Source: an uncultured Alphaproteobacteria bacterium (GTDB taxonomy: Bacteria > Pseudomonadota > Alphaproteobacteria > Rs-D84). Taken from it: a DNA stretch of 11,100 bases. The stretch spans positions 1-11,100 of the forward strand of contig CAMHKP010000005.1 in the NCBI GenBank assembly GCA_946185785.1, written 5' to 3'. Made by a program: the position numbers and the translations under genes. Numbering within the stretch: position 1 is the first letter of the stretch; each line of letters starts with the position of its first letter. Positions 1-11,100 of the stretch are shown here, piece by piece. Under the pieces are notes generated by a model. It searched no databases, was not told the DNA's origin, and worked only from the letters and a program-made list of their open reading frames with translations.

Positions 1-1315
1 AGGTATATTTGATACAGTCACAGGGCGATTCTTTACCAACAGCAATGCCAACAGCGCAAGTGGATTTACGTATGGTGGTGATTTAAGTGATAATTGCGTT
101 GATTCTGGTGTTGGGCATTATGTGGGACAATCTGTGACTAATTTTGGTAATGTTGGTGAACGTATTCCATGTCCTGTTGGTACATATTCCAACAGTCCGC
201 GTGGTGCCAGCATTGCGGTATGTCAAGATTGTTCGGGCGCAACATACAATGATGTCACAGGTGCGTCTGAGTGTACCGCATGCCCAATCGGGTATACCGA
301 TAATATTGATTCTGGTAAAACATCAAAAAGACAATGTCAAACCACATGTCCAGGCGGAACATATATGTCGTCTGATACGATTAATGGATATACAAAATTA
401 GACTATATCGAAGCAACCGGTAAACAATGGATAAATACTGGTATTTTTGCATCATCTTTGGTAAATCCAATTATGAAATTGACAACGCAATACACCACCG
501 TTGAAAAAGGGAAACAAACTGGTGCCAAGAAAAACAATCTTGATTTCAAAGTTGGCATTTCTAATGCTAATGTGTTCTTGTGCCAGGCTGGTGGATCAAA
601 TACAGAAACTAAATTTGGTGCTGCTGATACTGCAAAACATACTTTTGTTTTGGATGCTGGTGCGCAGACATGTACACTGGACGGTGAAACAAAAACATTG
701 GCTGTTGGTAATTTAACGGACGGTCCAATTTCAATTGGAACGGTGAATAATCAGTCTGGTAATGCCGGAAAACAAAAAATCTTTGCTTTTACTTTGATAA
801 GCAACGGTATAAAATTATTGGATATGATACCTGTGCGTGATGCCAATGGGGTCGCAGGAATGTATGATGTGGAACACGAGCAGTTTTATCAAAGTGCTGG
901 AACGCTGCCTTTTATTGAGGGACCGATGACAAGTTCCGGTGGCTGTATAGATGTTGAACCGGGGTATTGGGCACCAGAAACAGTATTGGGTTATGGTGAA
1001 ACAAGCAATCGTAATGAATGTCCAATGGGTACAACAACGGTTGGGTATGGACATGGGGCAGATGAATCGTCCGATTGTGCACGTGAATTGCGTCTTGGTA
1101 ATACAATCATTTATTCCAAAAAAAACAAAACAACAACACCGGCGCTAAATATCATGACATCTTCTGGGGATATGTTTTACATTGGTCTTAGCAATACCAA
1201 TCACACACTGTCTAATTTACATCTTTCTGATGGTGTTGTTCAATATACTGCCTATGATGACAGTTTGATAAATGGTGAACGCAATTTTACAACTGGTGAA
1301 CGCATACAACAGTAA
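1..1315 (+). CDS. Cysteine-rich surface protein with lectin-like domain, C-terminal part (partial, 5' end outside window)
   Basis: The reading frame is open from base 2, so the gene begins upstream of the window; the GTG at 122 is internal. About 437 residues are visible, ending at TAA 1313-1315. The first part (to about base 380) is cysteine-rich with repeated Cys-Pro-x-Gly-Thr-Tyr units, for example CPVGTYS and CPGGTYM, resembling ephrin-receptor/TNFR-like cysteine modules. From about 386 to 928 follows a beta-rich segment starting YTKLDYIEATGKQWINTG, the pattern of concanavalin/LamG-type lectin domains. A second cysteine-containing stretch and a glycine/asparagine-rich end (LHLSDGVVQYT, GERNFTTGERIQQ) follow. 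No LPXTG anchor or C-terminal membrane helix is visible. I infer a secreted or surface protein related to the gene at 10016. Binding target and anchoring are unknown. Confidence 0.75.
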   Translation, partial: GIFDTVTGRFFTNSNANSASGFTYGGDLSDNCVDSGVGHYVGQSVTNFGNVGERIPCPVGTYSNSPRGASIAVCQDCSGATYNDVTGASECTACPIGYTDNIDSGKTSKRQCQTTCPGGTYMSSDTINGYTKLDYIEATGKQWINTGIFASSLVNPIMKLTTQYTTVEKGKQTGAKKNNLDFKVGISNANVFLCQAGGSNTETKFGAADTAKHTFVLDAGAQTCTLDGETKTLAVGNLTDGPISIGTVNNQSGNAGKQKIFAFTLISNGIKLLDMIPVRDANGVAGMYDVEHEQFYQSAGTLPFIEGPMTSSGGCIDVEPGYWAPETVLGYGETSNRNECPMGTTTVGYGHGADESSDCARELRLGNTIIYSKKNKTTTPALNIMTSSGDMFYIGLSNTNHTLSNLHLSDGVVQYTAYDDSLINGERNFTTGERIQQ

Positions 1316-1335
1316 TGGAAAATATATATTTTTTT

Positions 1336-2415
1336 CTATTCTGTTGCGTAATTATCAAAATAGCCCTGGATATAAACAATTGGTGTGCCTTTGTCGCCAC
1401 TGCCACTAACCAGATCGCACAGACTGCCCAATAAATCTGTTATGCGACGTGGGGTGGTTCCCTGGGAAACCATATTGCCTTTTAATGAAGAATCTTTGGC
1501 GCGTATGTCGTCTTTTATCGCAGATTGTAACGCATCACCACTTAAATCATTAAACTTATTGTCGGCCAGATATTTCAATTTTAATTCGTTTGGTGTGCCT
1601 TCCAGTCCCGATGTGTATGCAGGACTTACCACAGGGTCGGCAAATTCCCAAATGCCACCAACTGGGTCTTTGAAGCATCCATCGCCATAAACCATAACTT
1701 CAATATGCTTGCCTGTTTTTTCAAGAATATTATGCTGAATTTTTTCAATGATTGGTATGCAATATGCGCGTGTTGGGAATAATTTTACCTTTTCTTCGGT
1801 TGCCTTGTTAGACCCCAACAAACCATATTCACTTCTGTCATGTAATATATCGGTTAAATCGATGACATTGTTAGATATCTGCTGTAATTTTGCACGTGTA
1901 ATATCTTTGGTATGTATATCTGCTGCGATAAAGGCATCAATCCCCATGCCTTTTAATACATTTACATCGTTGTCAATATAAACTTCTGCCTGAGTACCTT
2001 CTTCGGCAATGACAGATTTGTAATATTCATCATAATTCATTCCAGTAAAAGGGTGGTTTTTACACACATTGCCAACTTCGTCAGTTGGTGTAGATAACAA
2101 CAATATGATTTTGTCAGTGGCACGTGCCATCCCACGCAACAAAATTGCAAAACGATTACGGCTGTAAATAGGAAACACAACAGCAATAGATTTAGCATTG
2201 TTGGTTAATCTTTTTATGTCGTTCGCGATTTCATCAACGGTTGCATAATTACCCATGGTGCGTCCCATGACAGCTTCGGTTATTGCGACAACATCCCTGT
2301 CTTTGATTTCAATGCCAGAATTTAATACAATATCAGTGACAATTGTTGCCACGTCATCACCTTGTTTGAAAATTGGTGCACGTAAACCAAATGCAGATGT
2401 GCCGATTGTTCTCAT
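1336..2415 (-). CDS. F420-0:L-glutamate ligase (CofE-like) family protein
   Basis: The 359-residue product matches the family annotated as coenzyme F420-0:gamma-glutamyl ligase (COG1478). Motifs I recognise are DRDVVAITEAVMGR (39-52), FPIYSRNRFA (81-90), YGLLGSN (197-203), YGDGCFKDPVGGIWEFADP (243-261), an SPAYTSGLEGTPNELKLKYLAD region (264-285), and SGSGDKGTP with IQGYFDNY near the end. True CofE adds glutamates to F420-0 with GTP. This longer subfamily occurs in many anaerobes that do not make F420, so the actual substrate is probably different and unknown. The length is full. AAAGGGG lies 7 nt upstream of ATG on the minus strand. The gene stands alone, convergent with the surface gene (20 bp gap) and divergent from GMP reductase. 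Family assignment is firm; function is not. Confidence 0.85.
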   Translation of the reverse strand: MRTIGTSAFGLRAPIFKQGDDVATIVTDIVLNSGIEIKDRDVVAITEAVMGRTMGNYATVDEIANDIKRLTNNAKSIAVVFPIYSRNRFAILLRGMARATDKIILLLSTPTDEVGNVCKNHPFTGMNYDEYYKSVIAEEGTQAEVYIDNDVNVLKGMGIDAFIAADIHTKDITRAKLQQISNNVIDLTDILHDRSEYGLLGSNKATEEKVKLFPTRAYCIPIIEKIQHNILEKTGKHIEVMVYGDGCFKDPVGGIWEFADPVVSPAYTSGLEGTPNELKLKYLADNKFNDLSGDALQSAIKDDIRAKDSSLKGNMVSQGTTPRRITDLLGSLCDLVSGSGDKGTPIVYIQGYFDNYATE

Positions 2416-2450
2416 TAGTGTCCCCTTTCTTTATATTTTTTCCGGCACCT

Positions 2451-2479
2451 ATTAAACCCAATTTCTTAATTAAATTCAA
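2451..2479 (-). promoter_or_regulatory. Candidate sigma70 promoter for the CofE-like gene
   Basis: On the minus strand, TTGAAT (2479-2474) is followed by a 17-bp spacer and TTTAAT (2456-2451). This puts the start point about 30 bases before the ATG at 2415. Two hexamer mismatches in AT-rich DNA make it moderate evidence. It lies back to back with the stronger rightward promoter. Confidence 0.4.
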
Positions 2480-2491
2480 GTAATTATTATA

Positions 2492-2521
2492 TTGAAATTG
2501 TATCGCCAGCTTGTGTATAAT
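2492..2521 (+). promoter_or_regulatory. Sigma70-type promoter for GMP reductase
   Basis: TTGAAA (2492-2497), an 18-bp spacer and a perfect TATAAT (2516-2521) lie just upstream of the gene. Transcription would start near 2528, giving a leader of about 17 nt that begins just before the ribosome binding site AAAGGAG (2533-2539). So short a leader leaves no room for a riboswitch. Confidence 0.75.
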
Positions 2522-2544
2522 CGCAAGGTTGCAAAGGAGTTTTT

Positions 2545-3654
2545 ATGACACAGATATTATCAGAAGTTTACCTTGATTATTCCGACATTTTAATTCGTCC
2601 AAAAATGGGTATAAATTTAAATTCACGCAAGGAAGTTAATCTGCAACGGTTATTCAAATTCAAACATGGACAAACACGTACTGGTCTGGGGGTGTTTAAT
2701 GCGAATATGGCAACGGTTGGTAATTTTGACGTTGCCAAGAAATTGTTGGCCAAGGGCATGTTTGCAACCCTGCATAAACATTACAGTTTGGATGAAATAG
2801 GGGAATTTTTAATATCTTGTCGTAATGAAAATATTCCGCTTGATAATCTGTTTATCACAATCGGTCTTAAAAATATAGACGATGAAATCCAGAAATTGAA
2901 AGATTTGGAATCTAAATACCAATGGGTGTCGCCACGCAATATATGTATAGATGCACCGAATTTTTATATTCAACGTGCGCTGGATATTTTGGCGCGTGTG
3001 CGTAATGAATTTAGTGATGCTGTAATTATGGCCGGAAATATCGCCAGTGGTGATATTTGCCTGAAATTGCTTGATTACGCAGATATTATCAAATGCGGCA
3101 TCGGCAGTGGTTCGGCTTGTCTGACCCGCAAACAGACAGGTTGTGGTACACCAATGGTGTCGCTGGTTGTGGAATGCGCAGACATTGCCCATTCTGTTGG
3201 TGGACATATTTGCGCAGATGGCGGCATTGTTGATGTTGGCGACATCTGCAAGGCATTTTGTTTGAATTCAGATTTTGTCATGGCCGGCGGAATGTTTGCT
3301 GGCACCGATGAAGCGGCTGGCGATATTATTGAAAAGCATTTTGAAACACGGGAAATTGTTGACGGCAAACACGTGATTGAAACCAAGTATTTCAAGGCTT
3401 ATTATGGAATGTCGTCTGAATATGCGAATAACAAATTTGCGGGCGGAATGTCAAATTATAAAACGTCCGAAGGACGCGAATTGATGATACCGTATACCGG
3501 TTCAATCGACAAGATTTTACAGGATATCAACGGCGGAATCGCATCTTGTTGTACGTATATTGGGGCAGTGACGGTCAAACACATGTCTAAATGTGCCACA
3601 ATAATTCAGGTTCATAACCAATTAAATCGGGTTTTTGAAAAATACTCGGTTTAA
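2545..3654 (+). CDS. guaC: GMP reductase
   Basis: The enzyme reduces GMP to IMP and ammonia with NADPH, returning guanine nucleotides to the IMP pool. The 369-residue product is an IMPDH/GMPR-type TIM barrel without CBS domains. Visible signatures are YSDILIRPKMG at the N terminus, NANMATVG, the substrate loop GIGSGSACLTRKQTG with catalytic Cys192, the phosphate-binding ADGG and AGGMFAG segments, YGMSS, and the C-terminal SEGRE glutamate region. The order matches E. coli GuaC (347 residues as I recall it). The absence of CBS domains and of an IMPDH-type Arg-Tyr flap favours GMP reductase over IMP dehydrogenase. Compared with E. coli there is extra sequence before YGMSS (around ETREIVDGKHVIETKYF). 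AAAGGAG sits 5 nt before ATG. It appears monocistronic from its own promoter. Confidence 0.9.
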   Translation: MTQILSEVYLDYSDILIRPKMGINLNSRKEVNLQRLFKFKHGQTRTGLGVFNANMATVGNFDVAKKLLAKGMFATLHKHYSLDEIGEFLISCRNENIPLDNLFITIGLKNIDDEIQKLKDLESKYQWVSPRNICIDAPNFYIQRALDILARVRNEFSDAVIMAGNIASGDICLKLLDYADIIKCGIGSGSACLTRKQTGCGTPMVSLVVECADIAHSVGGHICADGGIVDVGDICKAFCLNSDFVMAGGMFAGTDEAAGDIIEKHFETREIVDGKHVIETKYFKAYYGMSSEYANNKFAGGMSNYKTSEGRELMIPYTGSIDKILQDINGGIASCCTYIGAVTVKHMSKCATIIQVHNQLNRVFEKYSV

Positions 3655-3845: not shown

Positions 3846-5312
3846 ATGTCAGAAAACACAACAATATCAACCAACGAATTAGAAGCACGCTTGCAAAAGG
3901 CTGAAAATATTCGCGCACGTGACGGCGTTGTCTGGAAAGACACTTTTGATCGCAGCCATAAAATTTGCGAAGCACGTGAATTGCCAGACGGATCTGCTGT
4001 TAAATTGTGTGGCCGTGTTACCGCATTGCGTTGGTTGGGCAAACTGATGTTTGGTCGCATTTATGATATCGAAGGCGAAATTCAATTTTCTATGTCGCGT
4101 GAAGAAATTGGCGAAGAAGATTACAAGTTTATGAAAGCAAATGTCGATATGGGCGACTTTATCGGCATTACTGGTGAATTATATCACACAACGGCGGGCG
4201 AATTGACGGTACGTGTTTCACACTATGACATTCTGTCCAAGGCGTTGCGTCCGTTGCCGGAAAAGTTCCATGGCTTGACTGATACCGAAGCGCGCTATCG
4301 TCAACGTTATTTGGATGTTATTTCCAATCCAGAATCACGCAGCGTATTGTTGGGGCGTTTCAAAATGACGCAAGAATGGCGCAAGTTTATGATAGATAAT
4401 GGATTTTTGGAAATTGAAACACCAGTGTTGCAAAATGTTGCGTCTGGTGCAGCGGCAAAACCATTTACAACACATCACAATGCGTTGGATGCGGATTTTC
4501 AATTGCGTATTTCCCCAGAATTATTCTTGAAAATGGCAATTGGTGCGGGATTTGATCGTGTATTCGAAGTGGCCAAGGATTTCCGTAACGAAGGTATGGA
4601 TGCAATGCATCTGCAAGAATTCACAATGGTTGAATGGTATGCGGCATACTGGGATTACAAAAAGAATATCGATTTCACATGGCGTCTGATTCAGCATTTG
4701 ATTAAATCTATGCGTGGTACATTACAGATTTCATATCAAGGTACCGAATTAGATTTTTCTAAATACGAAATGATGGATTACACAGCCAAAATGAACGAAT
4801 TGTTTGGTTGCAATATTTTGGACTTTGATGATTTAGATGCATTAAAGAAACGTCTGGTGGATTCCAAAATGTTCCCAGCCGAAGATTTAGAAGAATTGAA
4901 TTCAATTCCAACATTGGTTGATTGGGTATATAAGCGCAAGATTCGTGAAAACATTATTAAGCCAACATTCCTGTACAACTATCCAACATATATGGTACCA
5001 TTGGCACGTCACAGCGATGCCGATGACAGATGTTTGGATATGTATCAATTGTTGGTATGTGGTGCCGAATTGTGCAAGGGGTATTCAGAATTGGTAAACC
5101 CAATACAACAATTAAAGGCATTCGAAGAACAGGCGAAAAATATCGCGAACGGTGACGAAGAAGCATTTAACCCAGATAATGACTTCGTTCGTGCGATGGA
5201 ACACGGTTTCCCACCGATTTCTGGTGTGGGTCTGGGCGTTGACAGATTGGCAAATATCATATTTGATCAACCGACATTGCGTGACGTTATCTTGTTCCCA
5301 ATGATGAAATAG
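3846..5312 (+). CDS. lysS: Lysyl-tRNA synthetase, class II
   Basis: The enzyme charges tRNA-Lys with lysine using ATP in the cytoplasm. An N-terminal OB-fold anticodon-binding domain (about residues 50-130, starting AVKLCGRV) is followed by the class II catalytic core: motif 1 around GFLEIETPVLQ, motif 2 from Phe246 (FRNEGMDAMHLQEFTMVEWY), and motif 3 from Gly460 (GVGLGVDRLANIIF, Arg467), ending RDVILFP. The motif 2 form with HLQEFT, rather than HNPEFT, marks a non-E. coli branch. I chose ATG 3846 (488 residues, MSENTTIS) over the in-frame ATG at 3783. The upstream start would run translation through the terminator hairpin, and AAGGGAAAA lies just before 3846. The gene is followed at 10 nt by the next CDS, so the two are probably cotranscribed. 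Confidence 0.93.
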   Translation: MSENTTISTNELEARLQKAENIRARDGVVWKDTFDRSHKICEARELPDGSAVKLCGRVTALRWLGKLMFGRIYDIEGEIQFSMSREEIGEEDYKFMKANVDMGDFIGITGELYHTTAGELTVRVSHYDILSKALRPLPEKFHGLTDTEARYRQRYLDVISNPESRSVLLGRFKMTQEWRKFMIDNGFLEIETPVLQNVASGAAAKPFTTHHNALDADFQLRISPELFLKMAIGAGFDRVFEVAKDFRNEGMDAMHLQEFTMVEWYAAYWDYKKNIDFTWRLIQHLIKSMRGTLQISYQGTELDFSKYEMMDYTAKMNELFGCNILDFDDLDALKKRLVDSKMFPAEDLEELNSIPTLVDWVYKRKIRENIIKPTFLYNYPTYMVPLARHSDADDRCLDMYQLLVCGAELCKGYSELVNPIQQLKAFEEQAKNIANGDEEAFNPDNDFVRAMEHGFPPISGVGLGVDRLANIIFDQPTLRDVILFPMMK

Positions 5313-5322
5313 GGTACCCACG

Positions 5323-6720
5323 ATGATAGCAAAAACCGATACTTTTGCAGCGGATATGACCGCTGATCATGACCGGAAAAACCTTGCCGATATAGAGCGG
5401 GCATTAACTGAACATCGCATAAATGACGAAGCCGCGGAATATCTGCGGACGTTGTATAGCGATGGTATGGATTGGTTCCGCGAAGTGTTCCACGTTTTGG
5501 GCAAATGTCTTGGTGCGCCTAAGGCTCCGGTTGTTCGTTATGATTATGACAACGATTGTGGAATAGACGAAAAAATAAAAATTTCTGATATTAACCCATT
5601 GTCGCCATATTTGGTTCAACATCGTCTTGATATGGACCCGATGCGTAATCAGTTCTTTACCATCAGTGCCGGACACCAAGTTGACTTGTCGGTGTCTTCA
5701 ATCGTGACAGTTATTGTTGCGGCACAAAAACAAACATCGCGTGCGCTGGATAAGATAACCGGAAAATATTATCGTGAATTTATTGACGATGTTGCGACAA
5801 CGGCTGAACGTGTTATTTCATCACACGAACGTGCGGCATCTGGTCGTGCAATTGCCGACAAAATTCGTGAAGAATTTTCAAATAAATTTATTACTGCGGC
5901 ATCAGAAACAGTGTTGCGTATTATTGGACGGGGACATGAAGAAATTGCGGTGGAATTGGTTCGTGAACTAGACAAGATTCGCAAACCACATTTGCGCTTG
6001 CAAGATGTATGGCGTGTAAAGTGCTTGTTTGATTTGGTACCCCAGGCTCGTACATTCATTGAACGCATTCGTGAAACAATGCCAGAACGTATTATTTCAA
6101 TGCGTGATAAGTTTTATGATGTTGACAACCCACGTAATTATCGTGACGCCAAAATTATTTTGAACATCGGTCATGATGCGGAACATGTTGTTCCAATGGA
6201 AATTATTTGTCAGGTTCGTACATTCTTTGAATTTGAACGTTTGACACACACGCAATATGAACGTGCGCGCAAACGCAAAAATGCCGCCAGTGATGATATC
6301 GAACGCAAATTGGCGGACTATATGGAAGATGGTATTAAGCAATACAATCTTATGATTTGTGATTGTGTCGAAGATTTATTTGATCGTGTCGGTTGGAATA
6401 TATTGTATGAACGCGGTTTGGGGATGTCGTTGTTTGATGGATTCCCAAAGAATTGTACATTGTATTATCCACAAAAAATGTTGGACATTATTACAGATAA
6501 ATTGGACAACGCAATTGAAAATGAAGTGTTTCATTTGACCAATTCGCCAGCAAAATTGACCCAGACTCAAATGAGTGAAATCTTTCACTTTATGGCGCGG
6601 TTCATTTTGGTTGCGGCAATGCCATACCGTAAAAACGCGTGGTCTGCACCGACAAATACAACAGCGGGCAAATTGTTCAATTTTGTTATGAAGGAAGTGC
6701 AACGTTATTATAAACAATAA
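5323..6720 (+). CDS. Uncharacterised protein with a possible diverged RelA/SpoT-like nucleotidyltransferase domain
   Basis: The 465-residue protein is largely helical by eye, with no signal peptide or membrane segment, so it is probably cytoplasmic. I do not recognise it as a named family. Residues about 215-310 follow the layout of a RelA/SpoT synthetase domain: a basic stretch (KIRKPH), then LQDVWRVKCLF with Asp228 where the family has its metal-binding Asp (D-x-x-x-x-R), then NYRDAKIIL (Tyr273) where the family has G-Y-x-S/D, then EIICQVRTF (Gln297, Arg299) where the family has E-x-Q-I-R-T, then THTQYERARKRK. The Glu is shifted to position 293, two residues further from Gln than usual, so catalysis is doubtful. 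The flanking 150-residue ends are unassigned. It starts 10 nt after lysS with a weak AGGG site, suggesting cotranscription and coupling, and ends at the terminator after 6746. Confidence 0.75.
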   Translation: MIAKTDTFAADMTADHDRKNLADIERALTEHRINDEAAEYLRTLYSDGMDWFREVFHVLGKCLGAPKAPVVRYDYDNDCGIDEKIKISDINPLSPYLVQHRLDMDPMRNQFFTISAGHQVDLSVSSIVTVIVAAQKQTSRALDKITGKYYREFIDDVATTAERVISSHERAASGRAIADKIREEFSNKFITAASETVLRIIGRGHEEIAVELVRELDKIRKPHLRLQDVWRVKCLFDLVPQARTFIERIRETMPERIISMRDKFYDVDNPRNYRDAKIILNIGHDAEHVVPMEIICQVRTFFEFERLTHTQYERARKRKNAASDDIERKLADYMEDGIKQYNLMICDCVEDLFDRVGWNILYERGLGMSLFDGFPKNCTLYYPQKMLDIITDKLDNAIENEVFHLTNSPAKLTQTQMSEIFHFMARFILVAAMPYRKNAWSAPTNTTAGKLFNFVMKEVQRYYKQ

Positions 6721-6745
6721 TATGTTGAAATTACGACAAAATTAT

Positions 6746-6787
6746 ATCGCCCCGTGGGAAATAATACGCCATAGGGCGATTTGTTTT
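6746..6787 (+). terminator. Intrinsic terminator after the lysS operon
   Basis: ATCGCCC (6746-6752) pairs with GGGCGAT (6774-6780), followed by TTGTTTTTT. The 21-nt loop is long, but the stem is perfect and the position fits, 26 nt after the stop codon. Confidence 0.7.
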
Positions 6788-6828
6788 TTACTTGTAATAC
6801 TTTTCTAATTGCGCCACAATTATATCAG

Positions 6829-6850
6829 GTTCATAGATTAACTTTGAACC
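6829..6850. repeat. Short inverted repeat in the cold-shock gene leader region
   Basis: GGTTCA (6829-6834) and TGAACC (6845-6850) form a perfect 6-bp inverted repeat with a 10-nt gap, ending 14 nt before the AAAGGA ribosome binding site. It could be an operator or an RNA hairpin in the leader. No convincing promoter could be fixed next to it. Confidence 0.35.
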
Positions 6851-6877
6851 ATAACAAGCATAGCAAAGGACTAAGAT

Positions 6878-7219
6878 ATGCGGAAAGGAAAAGTGAAATG
6901 GTATAACGGCAAAAAATGTTTTGGGTTTATTACACCTGACGAGCCAAATGAAAACGGAAACACAGATGATGTATTTGTTCATTCCAGTGCATTAAAAGAA
7001 GCGGGCATACGTTTTTTAAATGAAAATGATATTGTTGAATTCGAAGAAGAAACCCGCAATGACAAATTGTCGGTGACGACATTGAAATTGATTCAGCGTG
7101 ACGAAGAATCAGCACGTTTGTTCCATGAACGTCGTGCAGAACGTCGTCGTGCTGCCGAAGAACGCAAACAACGCGAAGAAAAATCAAGCAGACGCGGATT
7201 TGCATTCTGGAAAAAATAA
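6878..7219 (+). CDS. Cold-shock-domain protein with charged C-terminal tail
   Basis: This small single-stranded nucleic-acid-binding protein probably acts as an RNA chaperone. Residues 1-70 form a CspA-type cold-shock domain: GKVKWYNGKKCFGFI contains an RNP1-like KCFGFI (13-18; the usual form is KGFGFI) and DVFVHSSAL (31-39) is RNP2. The 113-residue length exceeds the usual 65-75. The extra part, residues 74-113, is a highly charged Arg/Glu/Lys tail (ERRAERRRAAEERKQREEK) likely to be helical or disordered, ending in RRGFAFWKK. AAAGGA (6865-6870) lies 7 nt before ATG. The gene has terminators on both sides, so it is transcribed alone. I do not assign a csp letter. Confidence 0.88.
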   Translation: MRKGKVKWYNGKKCFGFITPDEPNENGNTDDVFVHSSALKEAGIRFLNENDIVEFEEETRNDKLSVTTLKLIQRDEESARLFHERRAERRRAAEERKQREEKSSRRGFAFWKK

Positions 7220-7220
7220 T

Positions 7221-7244
7221 AAAAACGCCCGAACGGGCGTTTTT
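7221..7244. terminator. Intrinsic terminator after the cold-shock gene
   Basis: AAAAACGCCCG (7221-7231) and CGGGCGTTTTT (7234-7244) form a near-continuous hairpin starting one base after the stop codon. A-tract and T-tract flank it symmetrically, so it could work in both directions. Confidence 0.9.
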
Positions 7245-7246
7245 AA

Positions 7247-7275
7247 TTGAAAACGTCGCACCGTTGAATTATAAT
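7247..7275 (+). promoter_or_regulatory. Sigma70-type promoter for the lemA-PHP operon
   Basis: TTGAAA (7247-7252), a 17-bp spacer and a perfect TATAAT (7270-7275) are followed by a leader of about 60 nt to the ATG at 7344, with AAAGGGG (7331-7337) as ribosome binding site. The promoter starts three bases after the preceding terminator. Confidence 0.8.
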
Positions 7276-7343
7276 AAAAACAAGCAAAAGATAAATGATA
7301 ATAAAAGATATTGATGAATAATTTTTAACAAAAGGGGTTTGAT

Positions 7344-7886
7344 ATGTGGACAGCAATTGCGATTGTTGCAGTGTTTTTATTATATTTTATTGCGGTTTAT
7401 AATGGGCTGGTTGCGCGCCGGAATCAGGTACGCGAAGCGTGGGCAACAATAGATACACAATTGAAACGCAGATATGATTTAATTCCTAATTTAATGGAAA
7501 CGGTCAAGGGTGCGGCAAAACACGAAAAAGAAACATTAGACGCGGTGATTTCTGCACGTAATTCTGCGATGGCAGCGCACGGTGCCGATGCACGTGGCGC
7601 AGCGGAAAAAACGCTTTCTGGTGCATTGAAAAATATTTTTGCATTGGCGGAAAGCTATCCAAACTTGAAAGCTAACGAAAACTTCTTGGAATTGCAACGC
7701 GAATTGGGTGATACAGAAACCAAGATTCAGGCGGCACGTCAGTTTTATAACACCGTTGTAATGGGCTTGAACAATGCGGTGGAACAATTCCCGTCAAACA
7801 TCGTTGCACGCATGTTTGGTATTGGCCCTGAAAAGTTATTTGAAGCAGATTCCACAGAACGCAAGGCACCAAGTGTAAAGTTCTAA
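7344..7886 (+). CDS. lemA: LemA family membrane-anchored protein
   Basis: The 180-residue product has one N-terminal membrane helix (about residues 2-20, WTAIAIVAVFLLYFIAVY), followed directly by the family hallmark YNGLVARRNQVREAWATID and LKRRYDLIPNLMETVKG. The remainder is predicted helical with the typical ARQFYNTVVMGLNNAVEQFPSN segment near the end. By family topology most of the protein lies outside the cytoplasmic membrane. LemA function is poorly defined, and the protein is often found next to TPM-domain or M48 peptidase genes. Here the partner is instead a PHP-domain protein whose ATG overlaps the lemA stop (TAATG), so the two are cotranscribed and probably translationally coupled. 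Confidence 0.92.
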   Translation: MWTAIAIVAVFLLYFIAVYNGLVARRNQVREAWATIDTQLKRRYDLIPNLMETVKGAAKHEKETLDAVISARNSAMAAHGADARGAAEKTLSGALKNIFALAESYPNLKANENFLELQRELGDTETKIQAARQFYNTVVMGLNNAVEQFPSNIVARMFGIGPEKLFEADSTERKAPSVKF

Positions 7887-8902: not shown

Positions 8903-9535
8903 ATGGCAAGACAAGGCGCAAAACGTAATACGCGCAAATTGAAAATTGGCCGCGCACTCGGTGTTAACCTGTGGGGCCAAGCAAAATCACCATTTAACAA
9001 ACGTAAATATAAACCAGGTCAGCACGGTCCAACATCTCGTGGTGGTAATTCATCTGATTACGCAAAACAGATGCGTGCAAAACAGACTTTGAAGGGTTAT
9101 TATGGCAACATCGGTGAAAAGAAGTTCCATGCATACTATGCCGAAGCAGACAATATGCGTGGTGACACCCCAGATAACTTGATTGGTTTGCTGGAACGTC
9201 GTTTGGACGCAGTTGTATATCGTGCAAAATTGGCACCAACAGTATTCTCTTCACGTCAGTTGGTTAGCCATGGTCACATTATGGTCAACGGCAAACGCGT
9301 TAAAATTGCTTCTTATCAAGTAAAACCAGGCGATGTCATCACCGTTAGTGAAAAAGCAAAACAAATGCCATTGGTCGTATTGGCATTGGAAGCAGGCGAT
9401 CGTGAAACACCAGATTACATCAATGTTGACAGTGCAAACTTCACAGCAACATATGTTCGTGTTCCATCGTTTGCAGATGTTCCATATCCAGTTCAAATGT
9501 TCCCAGAACTGGTCGTCGAATTCTATTCTCGTTAA
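8903..9535 (+). CDS. rpsD: 30S ribosomal protein S4
   Basis: S4 is a primary 16S rRNA-binding protein that starts assembly of the 30S body. The 210-residue product contains the N-terminal region with [21 protein letters not shown] (22-42), [10 protein letters not shown] (66-75), [14 protein letters not shown] (96-109), and the S4 RNA-binding fold with [17 protein letters not shown] (117-133) and VKPGDVI. It ends [18 protein letters not shown], the alphaproteobacterial form. I chose ATG 8903 rather than the in-frame ATG at 8834: S4 homologues begin at MARQGAKR or its equivalent, the size is then normal, and an AAGGA site precedes it. The gene stands alone, unlike the alpha-operon position in E. 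coli. No zinc-binding cysteines are present. Confidence 0.97.
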
Positions 9536-9636: not shown

Positions 9637-9775
9637 TTTGTCATCCCGGCCACCGAGCCGGGACCCAGGTAAATATGTCGCGCCGTTGGCGCGTGCTTTG
9701 TTATATACCTAGATCCCGGGTCAGCATCACCCGCGCAACAGGGTTGCGCGGGGCCCGATTGCCCGGGATGACAAA
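9637..9775. repeat. 139-bp GC-rich palindromic intergenic element (MITE-like)
   Basis: Perfect 13-bp terminal inverted repeats, TTTGTCATCCCGG (9637-9649) and CCGGGATGACAAA (9763-9775), bound the element. Inside are nested hairpins: CCCGGC/GCCGGG (9645-9650 with 9657-9662); GGGACCCAGGTA (from 9661) with TACCTAGATCCC (to 9717), which encloses CGCGCC/GGCGCG (9679-9684 with 9688-9693); and CCCGCGCAA/TTGCGCGGG (9730-9738 with 9744-9752). It is far richer in G and C than its surroundings and encodes no transposase. Palindromes opening GTCATCCCGG and closing CCGGGATGAC are familiar between genes in several Alphaproteobacteria. I infer a non-autonomous repeat that exists in more copies elsewhere in the genome. 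Confidence 0.8.
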
Positions 9776-9860
9776 ACCCATAAACCCACATTTTTTCATA
9801 AAAAATCACAACAAAAAACCACTAAAAACAAAGGAATAAAATAAAAAACCACCCAAAATA

Positions 9861-9960
9861 AAAAACGGTGGTCTAGATTCGGTGTTTTTTCGATTGACTA
9901 CCCCGCGGAAATACGGGTAAAATATGTACAGAAAAACACCGAATTTAAACCACCGTTTTT
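9861..9960. repeat. Inverted-repeat box enclosing a promoter (candidate invertible promoter)
   Basis: The left arm 9861-9891 and right arm 9931-9960 are reverse complements except for two substitutions (CTAG against TTAA) and one extra T in the left arm. The outer 12 bp (AAAAACGGTGGT / ACCACCGTTTTT) are identical. The 39-bp interior contains a rightward promoter. The arms flank the promoter on both sides, so this is not a simple terminator; that layout is typical of invertible promoters. It could also be a large operator or a bidirectional terminator with a promoter in its loop. No recombinase gene is visible in the window. Confidence 0.75.
9894..9923 (+). promoter_or_regulatory. Sigma70-type promoter inside the inverted-repeat box
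   Basis: TTGACT (9894-9899), an 18-bp spacer and TAAAAT (9918-9923) point at the gene starting at 10016; the start point would be near 9930, at the edge of the right arm. The spacer itself contains an inverted repeat TACCC/GGGTA (9899-9903 with 9915-9919), a possible repressor site. The 5' leader would then carry the whole right arm. Confidence 0.7.
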
Positions 9961-10015
9961 GATGGTGTGGTGCGGAAATGCTGGCGTTATGCCCTTGGGA
10001 AAAGGGGAAAGGAAC

Positions 10016-11100
10016 ATGTTCAAAAAATTATTTTTATCAGCAATGTTATTTACACTGTTTTTATTACAGTCTTCATATTCTAGTGTAAATTGTTTAAACG
10101 ACTGTGGCGCAAAAATTAATGGGTCGTGGACAACATCTTTTCCCCCCGGACAGCGCGCAACTGCGTATGCGGCGTTAGCTGGCACACAAGCGGGTTGCGA
10201 TGCTTGTTATTCAAGCACATCTTCAACCATATACACATGTAAGGGTACGGGTCATCTTATAAGTTATAGCGGATCTCTTTCGCCAACCATGTTCAAATGC
10301 AGTGGTTATAAGTGTCATGGGTATATCACATCGTCGCCATCATATGTTTTATGTAGTTTTTGTCCGGTTGGTTCGTACAATCCCACAGATTATGGTATGC
10401 GCTACTGTCTGGCGTGTCCAGCCGGTTATACAACATCGGGAACCGGTGCCAGTTCATGTTCTGTAAAATGTCCGGGATATGATTACACCGCAACATGGGA
10501 AACATCTTCTTGTACCGCTGGCAGTAGTTGTACAAATGTTTGTACCCCCAAAACATGTAAGGGTGGTGCAAAAATAATAGACGGAGTTTGCAAAGAATAT
10601 GGAGAAACATTTAATAATAATGGTGTGTATGTTACAAATGACACCGGTAGTGTATGTTTAGTGTGCAATGGCATGTATGATGATACATCATCTAATGACC
10701 AGTATATCTATTCTGGTTCACATGCACCTGGGCTTGTAGGAACAACTTTGTGTAATACTGTAAGAAATTACAATATCAACGAAACATATGGTTCGCGCAC
10801 ATGTACAAGTTCTGGATGGGACATGACTGGTGCAACATATCGTCAGTATTATTGGAAAACATACACCGGTAATATTCAGGTAATGTATTACAAAGATTAT
10901 ACCAACGGCACCGCCGGCACGGAAACGCGTTTGGGGGTTGGAGGCAGCGCGTACAATTCTAATGGTTGGTTGGTGCGGTGCAAGCCGGGGTATAAACTTA
11001 GCATAACCACCAGTGGCGCAAATTATGTGACGCGTCAAACGGATACCGTAAAAGAAGTATGGTCAAAAAGCACACCATCGACATCATATATTACATGTAC
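10016..11100 (+). CDS. Secreted cysteine-rich surface protein (partial, 3' end outside window)
   Basis: Translation from ATG 10016 stays open to the right edge (361 codons). The N terminus, MFKKLFLSAMLFTLFLLQSSYS, is a clear signal peptide (two lysines, then a hydrophobic core), with likely cleavage near residue 22, so the protein is exported. The mature part is rich in Cys, Ser, Thr, Gly and Tyr, with roughly two dozen cysteines. These include repeated modules CPVGSYNPTDYGMRYCLACPAGYTTSG and CPGYDYT that resemble the Cys-Pro-x-Gly-Tyr modules of the gene at the left edge, so the two belong to one family. Disulfide-bonded surface or extracellular repeats are likely; the ligand is unknown. AAGGGG (10002-10007) is the likely ribosome binding site. 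Expression should depend on the boxed promoter at 9894-9923. Confidence 0.85.
   Translation, partial: MFKKLFLSAMLFTLFLLQSSYSSVNCLNDCGAKINGSWTTSFPPGQRATAYAALAGTQAGCDACYSSTSSTIYTCKGTGHLISYSGSLSPTMFKCSGYKCHGYITSSPSYVLCSFCPVGSYNPTDYGMRYCLACPAGYTTSGTGASSCSVKCPGYDYTATWETSSCTAGSSCTNVCTPKTCKGGAKIIDGVCKEYGETFNNNGVYVTNDTGSVCLVCNGMYDDTSSNDQYIYSGSHAPGLVGTTLCNTVRNYNINETYGSRTCTSSGWDMTGATYRQYYWKTYTGNIQVMYYKDYTNGTAGTETRLGVGGSAYNSNGWLVRCKPGYKLSITTSGANYVTRQTDTVKEVWSKSTPSTSYITC

Follow-up and report, generated by a model that had tools for sequence, protein, structure and literature searches.

The window, by which we mean the whole stretch of 11,100 nucleotides analysed here, is contig C5 of the genome assembly (G000; 555,902 bases in 105 contigs, 70.5% complete) of an uncultured alphaproteobacterium. 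Near its right-hand end, rpsD is followed on the same strand by an ORF that continues past the window end (Table 1) and encodes 361 residues, 24 of them cysteines, up to that point. The N-terminus of the predicted protein, MFKKLFLSAMLFTLFLLQSSYS, is signal-like by a simple hydrophobicity rule, and the protein matches the Ephrin_rec_like family PF07699 with 26.1 bits against a cut-off of 23.1. Elsewhere in the window are a second cysteine-rich protein (2-1315, + strand), whose Ephrin_rec_like score of 22.3 bits lies below the 23.1 cut-off, an F420-0:gamma-glutamyl ligase family protein (PF01996; 1336-2415, - strand) and a 465-aa ORF without a Pfam match (5323-6720, + strand). No Rfam family matched the window at gathering score.

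Table 1. Features of the element and its neighbours, in window coordinates
Feature	Position	Strand	Basis or remark
rpsD, upstream neighbour	8903..9535	+	PF00163 and PF01479
Predicted leftward terminator (hairpin 9846-9874, T tract 9845-9838)	9838..9874	-	Faced by the promoter once inverted
Left inverted-repeat arm, distal to the surface gene	9858..9889	+	
Left core, ACGGTGGT	9865..9872	+	Exact core pairs in 35/156 same-genus genomes
Putative inverting segment, core centre to core centre, 84 bp	9869..9952	.	Reversed interiors between kept flanks in relatives
Promoter TTGACT-18-TAAAAT, aimed at the surface gene (ON)	9894..9923	+	
Right inverted-repeat arm, proximal to the surface gene	9932..9963	+	
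Right core, ACCACCGT	9949..9956	+	Exact-core scans
Putatively controlled gene, secreted Cys-rich protein	10016..11098	+	Continues past window end; PF07699 match

A sequence-only reading of this DNA had described inverted repeats enclosing a promoter aimed at a secreted cysteine-rich protein, and that description holds with the arms and promoter of Table 1. The arms are 32 nt each, 91% complementary, and separated by 42 nt. Ten of the 12 promoter bases match; because promoter-like matches are common by chance (two in 601 bases, with 1.3 expected from shuffles), the support for the promoter lies in its conservation in relatives. The RNA fold of the 120-nt region is strong (-47.2 kcal/mol versus a shuffle mean of -24.7; z -6.9), and none of 200 shuffles equalled it. 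The earlier reading had also remarked that the ends look terminator-like, which fits the prediction of a leftward-reading terminator; with the promoter turned around, this structure would shield rpsD. Its predicted energy is -10.0 kcal/mol in the inverted form of the window and -9.7 at both copies of the element in a related genome, G135; a comparable leftward terminator is predicted in four of the six copies of another, G020, as found. No terminator is predicted in the leader of the window's present form. Between rpsD and the element, at 9640-9773, lies a GTCATCCCGG-type palindromic repeat, and a similar one is found beside L111, one of the G135 copies.

Within the G000 assembly this was the one element found. 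A 146-base query matched only itself and arm against arm (E 1.6e-6), and a search for further copies of the arms, which the sequence-only reading had proposed, returned just the two in the window. A pattern of half-arm plus core with up to three mismatches likewise found the two window sites, and its backwards control also gave two matches. Among 59 same-genus genomes, a 251-base query around the element matched 15, G000 included, several over short stretches only; G020 gave five matches, mostly spanning the whole element.

The family was delimited by scanning 156 same-genus genomes for exact cores in inverted pairs. Inward pairs (ACGGTGGT...ACCACCGT) numbered 43 in 18 genomes and outward pairs 57 in 21, which makes 100 pairs in 35 genomes; a reversed-pattern control also gave single matches in 6 and 4 genomes, so a few single pairs could be chance. 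The count is one in G000, six in G020, nine in G047 and 18 in G077, and five of the last were left out of the 95 elements analysed below. Over 190 sites the consensus is tgccgaa...AAACCACCGTTT...tt.Ggca, where capitals stand for at least 80% and small letters for at least 55%, and where the core is fixed by the search itself. The arm sequences vary between genomes and are palindromic, with 7.8 of 12 flanking bases matching versus 3.7 when shuffled.

The spacing of core centres is 82-86 bp in 88 of the 95 pairs, 94-96 bp in six and 74 bp in one. A wider gap search added three pairs at 108-110 bp, outside the usual spacing (in G068, G057 and G041), those of G057 and G041 using a tandem extra core. 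A 10-base version of the core recovered 33 stretches from species-representative genomes, 25 of them from MAGs of uncultured Alphaproteobacteria, whose titles often name rumen, colon or rectum as the sample. The centres of these 25 are 83-86 bp apart, once 94, but the stretches come largely from the genomes of the exact-core scan, so that the two results are not independent. Many pairs are paralogues. The other eight, in unrelated taxa, have scattered spacings of 64-87 bp and serve as a chance control. The sequence-only reading had the 39 bp between the arms flipping, which is too narrow, since the conserved cores and the relatives give about 84 bp. Its caveat that the interior is short for recombinase looping is partly answered, in that members of the family generally have interiors as short as this one. 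The spacing is near eight helical turns, a description only; a periodicity measure did not prefer 10.5 bp over 9.5 or 11.5 bp, and could not discriminate because nearly all pairs fall in one cluster.

Assemblies display one state per locus, and the evidence for inversion comes from paralogues. Loci were oriented by their gene, and distal flank, interior and proximal flank were compared separately in 58 pairs from five hand-picked groups, covering 25 of the 95 elements (background identity of shuffled sequence: mean 56%, maximum 66). In 28 of the 58 pairs the interior matches better reversed. The clearest cases are L111/L112 in G135 (flanks 89% and 81%; interior 100% reversed versus 71% same-way), L027/L092 in G020 (80% and 93%; 97% versus 67%) and L132/L135 in G077 (96 and 99%; 95% versus 66%). 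Reversed interiors were absent from the six pairs compared in G068, and in G028, where flank identity is close to background, the interiors alone are informative. The opposite interiors between homologous flanks in G135, G020 and G077 support the idea of a phase-variable switch put forward in the sequence-only reading. In L111/L112, moreover, a mismatch in the arms, six bases inside the core, moves together with the interior and the outer flank keeps its place, so that exchange would take place in or next to the core.

These pairs also bear on whether the element might be a miniature transposable element or a plain transcription terminator rather than a switch. The strong fold, the A/T tracts at the ends, the predicted leftward terminator and the dispersed copies would all suit such an origin. 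Neither, however, explains paralogues that keep homologous flanks on both sides and have the interior alone reversed, and a 42-nt loop is long for a terminator; we regard the idea as very improbable. A mobile or transposed repeat in unrelated flanks was rejected on the same comparison, the pairs of G135, G077 and G020 having homologous flanks on both sides; those of G028 are near background.

Both orientations thus occur among paralogues of relatives (G135 and G020). The window interior matches that of L111 at 79% same-way and 68% reversed, and that of L112 at 79% reversed; because it agrees with L111, which is ON, the window is assigned the ON form. The surface-protein gene offered no orthologous locus for comparison: it matched in seven of 156 genomes, G000 itself among them, and the other six matches were weak and partial.

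On these grounds we consider it probable that the segment 9869-9952 is an invertible promoter flipped by an Mpi-family serine recombinase encoded elsewhere in the genome. At the level of sequence comparison, the paralogues in both orientations, the shared cores and spacing, and the association with Mpi described below are established. We infer which enzyme acts, exactly where exchange occurs, what each state expresses and what the terminator does. In this scheme a small Mpi-family serine recombinase would pair the two inversely oriented sites, with strand exchange in the cores. In the orientation found, the promoter would drive the secreted cysteine-rich protein (ON); once inverted, it would point toward rpsD and leave the surface gene without a promoter (OFF), and the leftward transcript would meet the predicted terminator, formed by core and distal flank, so that rpsD would be shielded.

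An Mpi-family serine invertase is the likely enzyme. The NCBIfam model of the master DNA invertase Mpi family, NF009949, is matched by recombinases encoded close to some of the elements, with 278 bits in G082 and 299 in G135 (cut-off 272); the one in G057 scores 256, below the cut-off, and is similar as well to DNA invertases of solved structure and to gamma-delta resolvase. In G135 the Mpi gene lies about 2.3 kb from the L111 element. Across the genus, 60 of 156 genomes have a match above the cut-off, and these comprise 32 of the 35 element-bearing genomes versus 28 of the 121 others (Fisher p 1.7e-13, shared ancestry ignored). The 28 may carry diverged cores, as two of them (G031 and G035) hold copies, L029 and L033, whose cores look altered by eye. 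The sequence-only reading was correct that the window contains no recombinase, and neither an Mpi nor any other PF00239 gene was found in the 70.5%-complete G000; across the genus, however, Mpi-family invertases track the elements.

The same invertible promoter could be flipped by a different enzyme, such as XerC/XerD or another serine or tyrosine recombinase. Every one of the 156 genomes has tyrosine recombinases, 29 of 30 chosen genomes have PF00239 proteins, and three element-bearing genomes (G000, G022 and G025) lack an Mpi gene over the cut-off. Such ubiquity made tyrosine recombinases uninformative and PF00239 too broad as markers; the Mpi-specific model, in contrast, separates element-bearing genomes from the others in the proportions given above, and G020, with six elements, has just two genes of PF00589, and its single PF00239 gene is the Mpi gene. 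We therefore think a different enzyme unlikely, and retain the Mpi-family invertase as the candidate. Two further approaches were set aside. An approximate core pair occurred at 3 of 30 PF00239 loci versus 1 of 28 PF00589 loci, too weak a difference to mark recombinase loci as carriers of elements, and motif conservation across 18 recombinases was circular, the set having been chosen by such motifs. At two Mpi loci (L288 in G135, 908-3417; L289 in G020, 5027-7595), the gene abuts a convergent protein of 621 or 625 aa, and an element with a surface gene lies near it.

Another possibility is that a former switch is now locked ON in the window's species, which would account for the single element and the lack of a detected recombinase in G000. 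The window's outer half-arms are in addition degenerate, fitting each other's consensus poorly. On the other hand, both cores are intact, the near relative G135 combines similar outer arms with both orientations and an Mpi gene, and G000 is just 70% complete. We hold a locked state to be quite unlikely, and a working promoter switch the better account.

The window belongs to one of several kinds of element. The 95 sort into 30 with a promoter inside the segment, 30 with a resolved translation-start module, four with starts toward both sides and 31 others. In the promoter class, 16 are OFF, eight ON, five have genes on both sides and one has no gene in view; the promoter thus faces away from the gene in 16 of the 24 loci with one clear gene side. 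This sorting uses a ribosome-site rule and is uninformative without it, and at L086, one of the 16 OFF loci, a frame with a TTG start lies on the promoter side. By the simple hydrophobicity rule, 20 of the 24 encode a signal-like protein, mostly cysteine-rich.

In the start-module class, a ribosome site and an ATG lie inside the segment, and only in one orientation does reading from that ATG cross the core and continue in a long frame; a signal-like N-terminus is found in 23 of 30 loci. The G028 version reads MQKSGIFTKIKTAIINGG or MQNSGIFTKIKTAIINGG, its core encoding NGG. Nine modules are ON as found and 21 OFF. Of the OFF leaders, 27 are predicted to form a terminator-like hairpin with a T tract, versus two of the ON leaders, although several of the predictions are weak and many come from paralogues. 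Start modules occur at L034, L147, L148 and L156 (G028), L132-L143 (G077) and L080-L097 (G047 and G082); some paralogues are ON and others OFF, with core pairs and spacing as elsewhere in the family.

The remaining 31 elements include 25 outward pairs with neither promoter nor start inside, 17 of which have one clear gene side. A terminator-like hairpin is predicted in exactly one orientation for 11 of the 17 (nine as found, two flipped) and in neither for six; 14 of the 17 have a promoter-like match scoring at least 9 just upstream of the distal core, such matches being common. Probable terminator modules, with a promoter-like match fixed upstream and the gene start outside the segment, include L056, L125, L126, L128, L153, L159 and L160. 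As modelled here, terminator modules are probably a class of the family, the least certain of the three.

Taken as a family, these elements lead us to favour, with some reserve, a view in which one Mpi-family invertase clade runs tiny modular invertons, with one site type and a fixed length of about 84 bp. The three interchangeable cargoes would be a promoter (as in the window), a terminator, or a start module of ribosome site, ATG and first signal-peptide codons, in which the core itself is read as codons, e.g., Asn-Gly-Gly. Flipping the start module would act as a double lock, removing the start codon and creating a terminator.

In Mycoplasma, the vsa and Vpma systems use inversion to decide which surface-protein gene joins an expression signal; they shuffle among genes and over longer distances, whereas each tiny cassette here acts on a single gene. 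Intragenic invertons were reportedly described by Chanin et al. in 2024, and like them the start-module segment reaches into coding sequence; it differs in supplying the ribosome site, the ATG and the first codons. Mpi-controlled invertible capsule promoters of Bacteroides fragilis are said to go back to Coyne et al. in 2003.

Invertible promoters under a global invertase are already known from Bacteroides, and the window is a member of the promoter class. PMC12632263 describes several such promoters under one global invertase, with Mpi control of capsule loci in Bacteroides fragilis. The likenesses are inverted repeats on either side of a sigma-70-type promoter that serves surface structures and, in relatives of the window's genome, several loci per genome and recombinases matching NF009949. 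The differences are the host, here a genus of gut Alphaproteobacteria, the targets, mostly secreted cysteine-rich proteins, the spacing fixed near 84 bp, and sites that also frame start-codon and terminator cargoes. For cwpV of Clostridioides difficile, PMC2784873 gives a promoter outside the inverting segment, an OFF-orientation leader predicted to form a terminator, 195 bp between the repeats and no start codon inside the segment. On that account, the start-module and probable terminator-module classes resemble cwpV in their external promoter and OFF-leader terminator, and we rejected a cwpV-type terminator switch for the window, whose promoter lies inside the segment (8-base cores, about 84 bp); other family members fit that type better. 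What appears to be new is the host group, the fixed 84-bp format and the one site type framing three cargoes, and a search of open-licence PMC literature found no report of these or of this inversion system in Alphaproteobacteria.

If correct, this view takes Bacteroides-like surface variation driven by an invertase into a small-genome genus of gut Alphaproteobacteria, lets one recombination site carry three different regulatory cargoes at one spacing, and makes the flipping of a start-codon module a compact joint switch of translation and transcription. The start-codon and terminator cassettes would escape surveys restricted to promoters between repeats. The short fixed spacing also raises a testable question, namely how sites 84 bp from each other are brought together by a serine recombinase.

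Finally, we note two further observations. In G047, two contigs start 117 bp beyond an element (L078, C5:118-209; L085, C15:118-209), with near-identical coding sequence, one ON and the other OFF; elements of this kind may break assemblies. In G057 (L101, C6:902-1601) and G041 (C3:84670-85397), a second clade of Mpi-like recombinase directly adjoins a core pair whose arms differ and which has an additional core in tandem, beside a protein of 322 or 336 aa.
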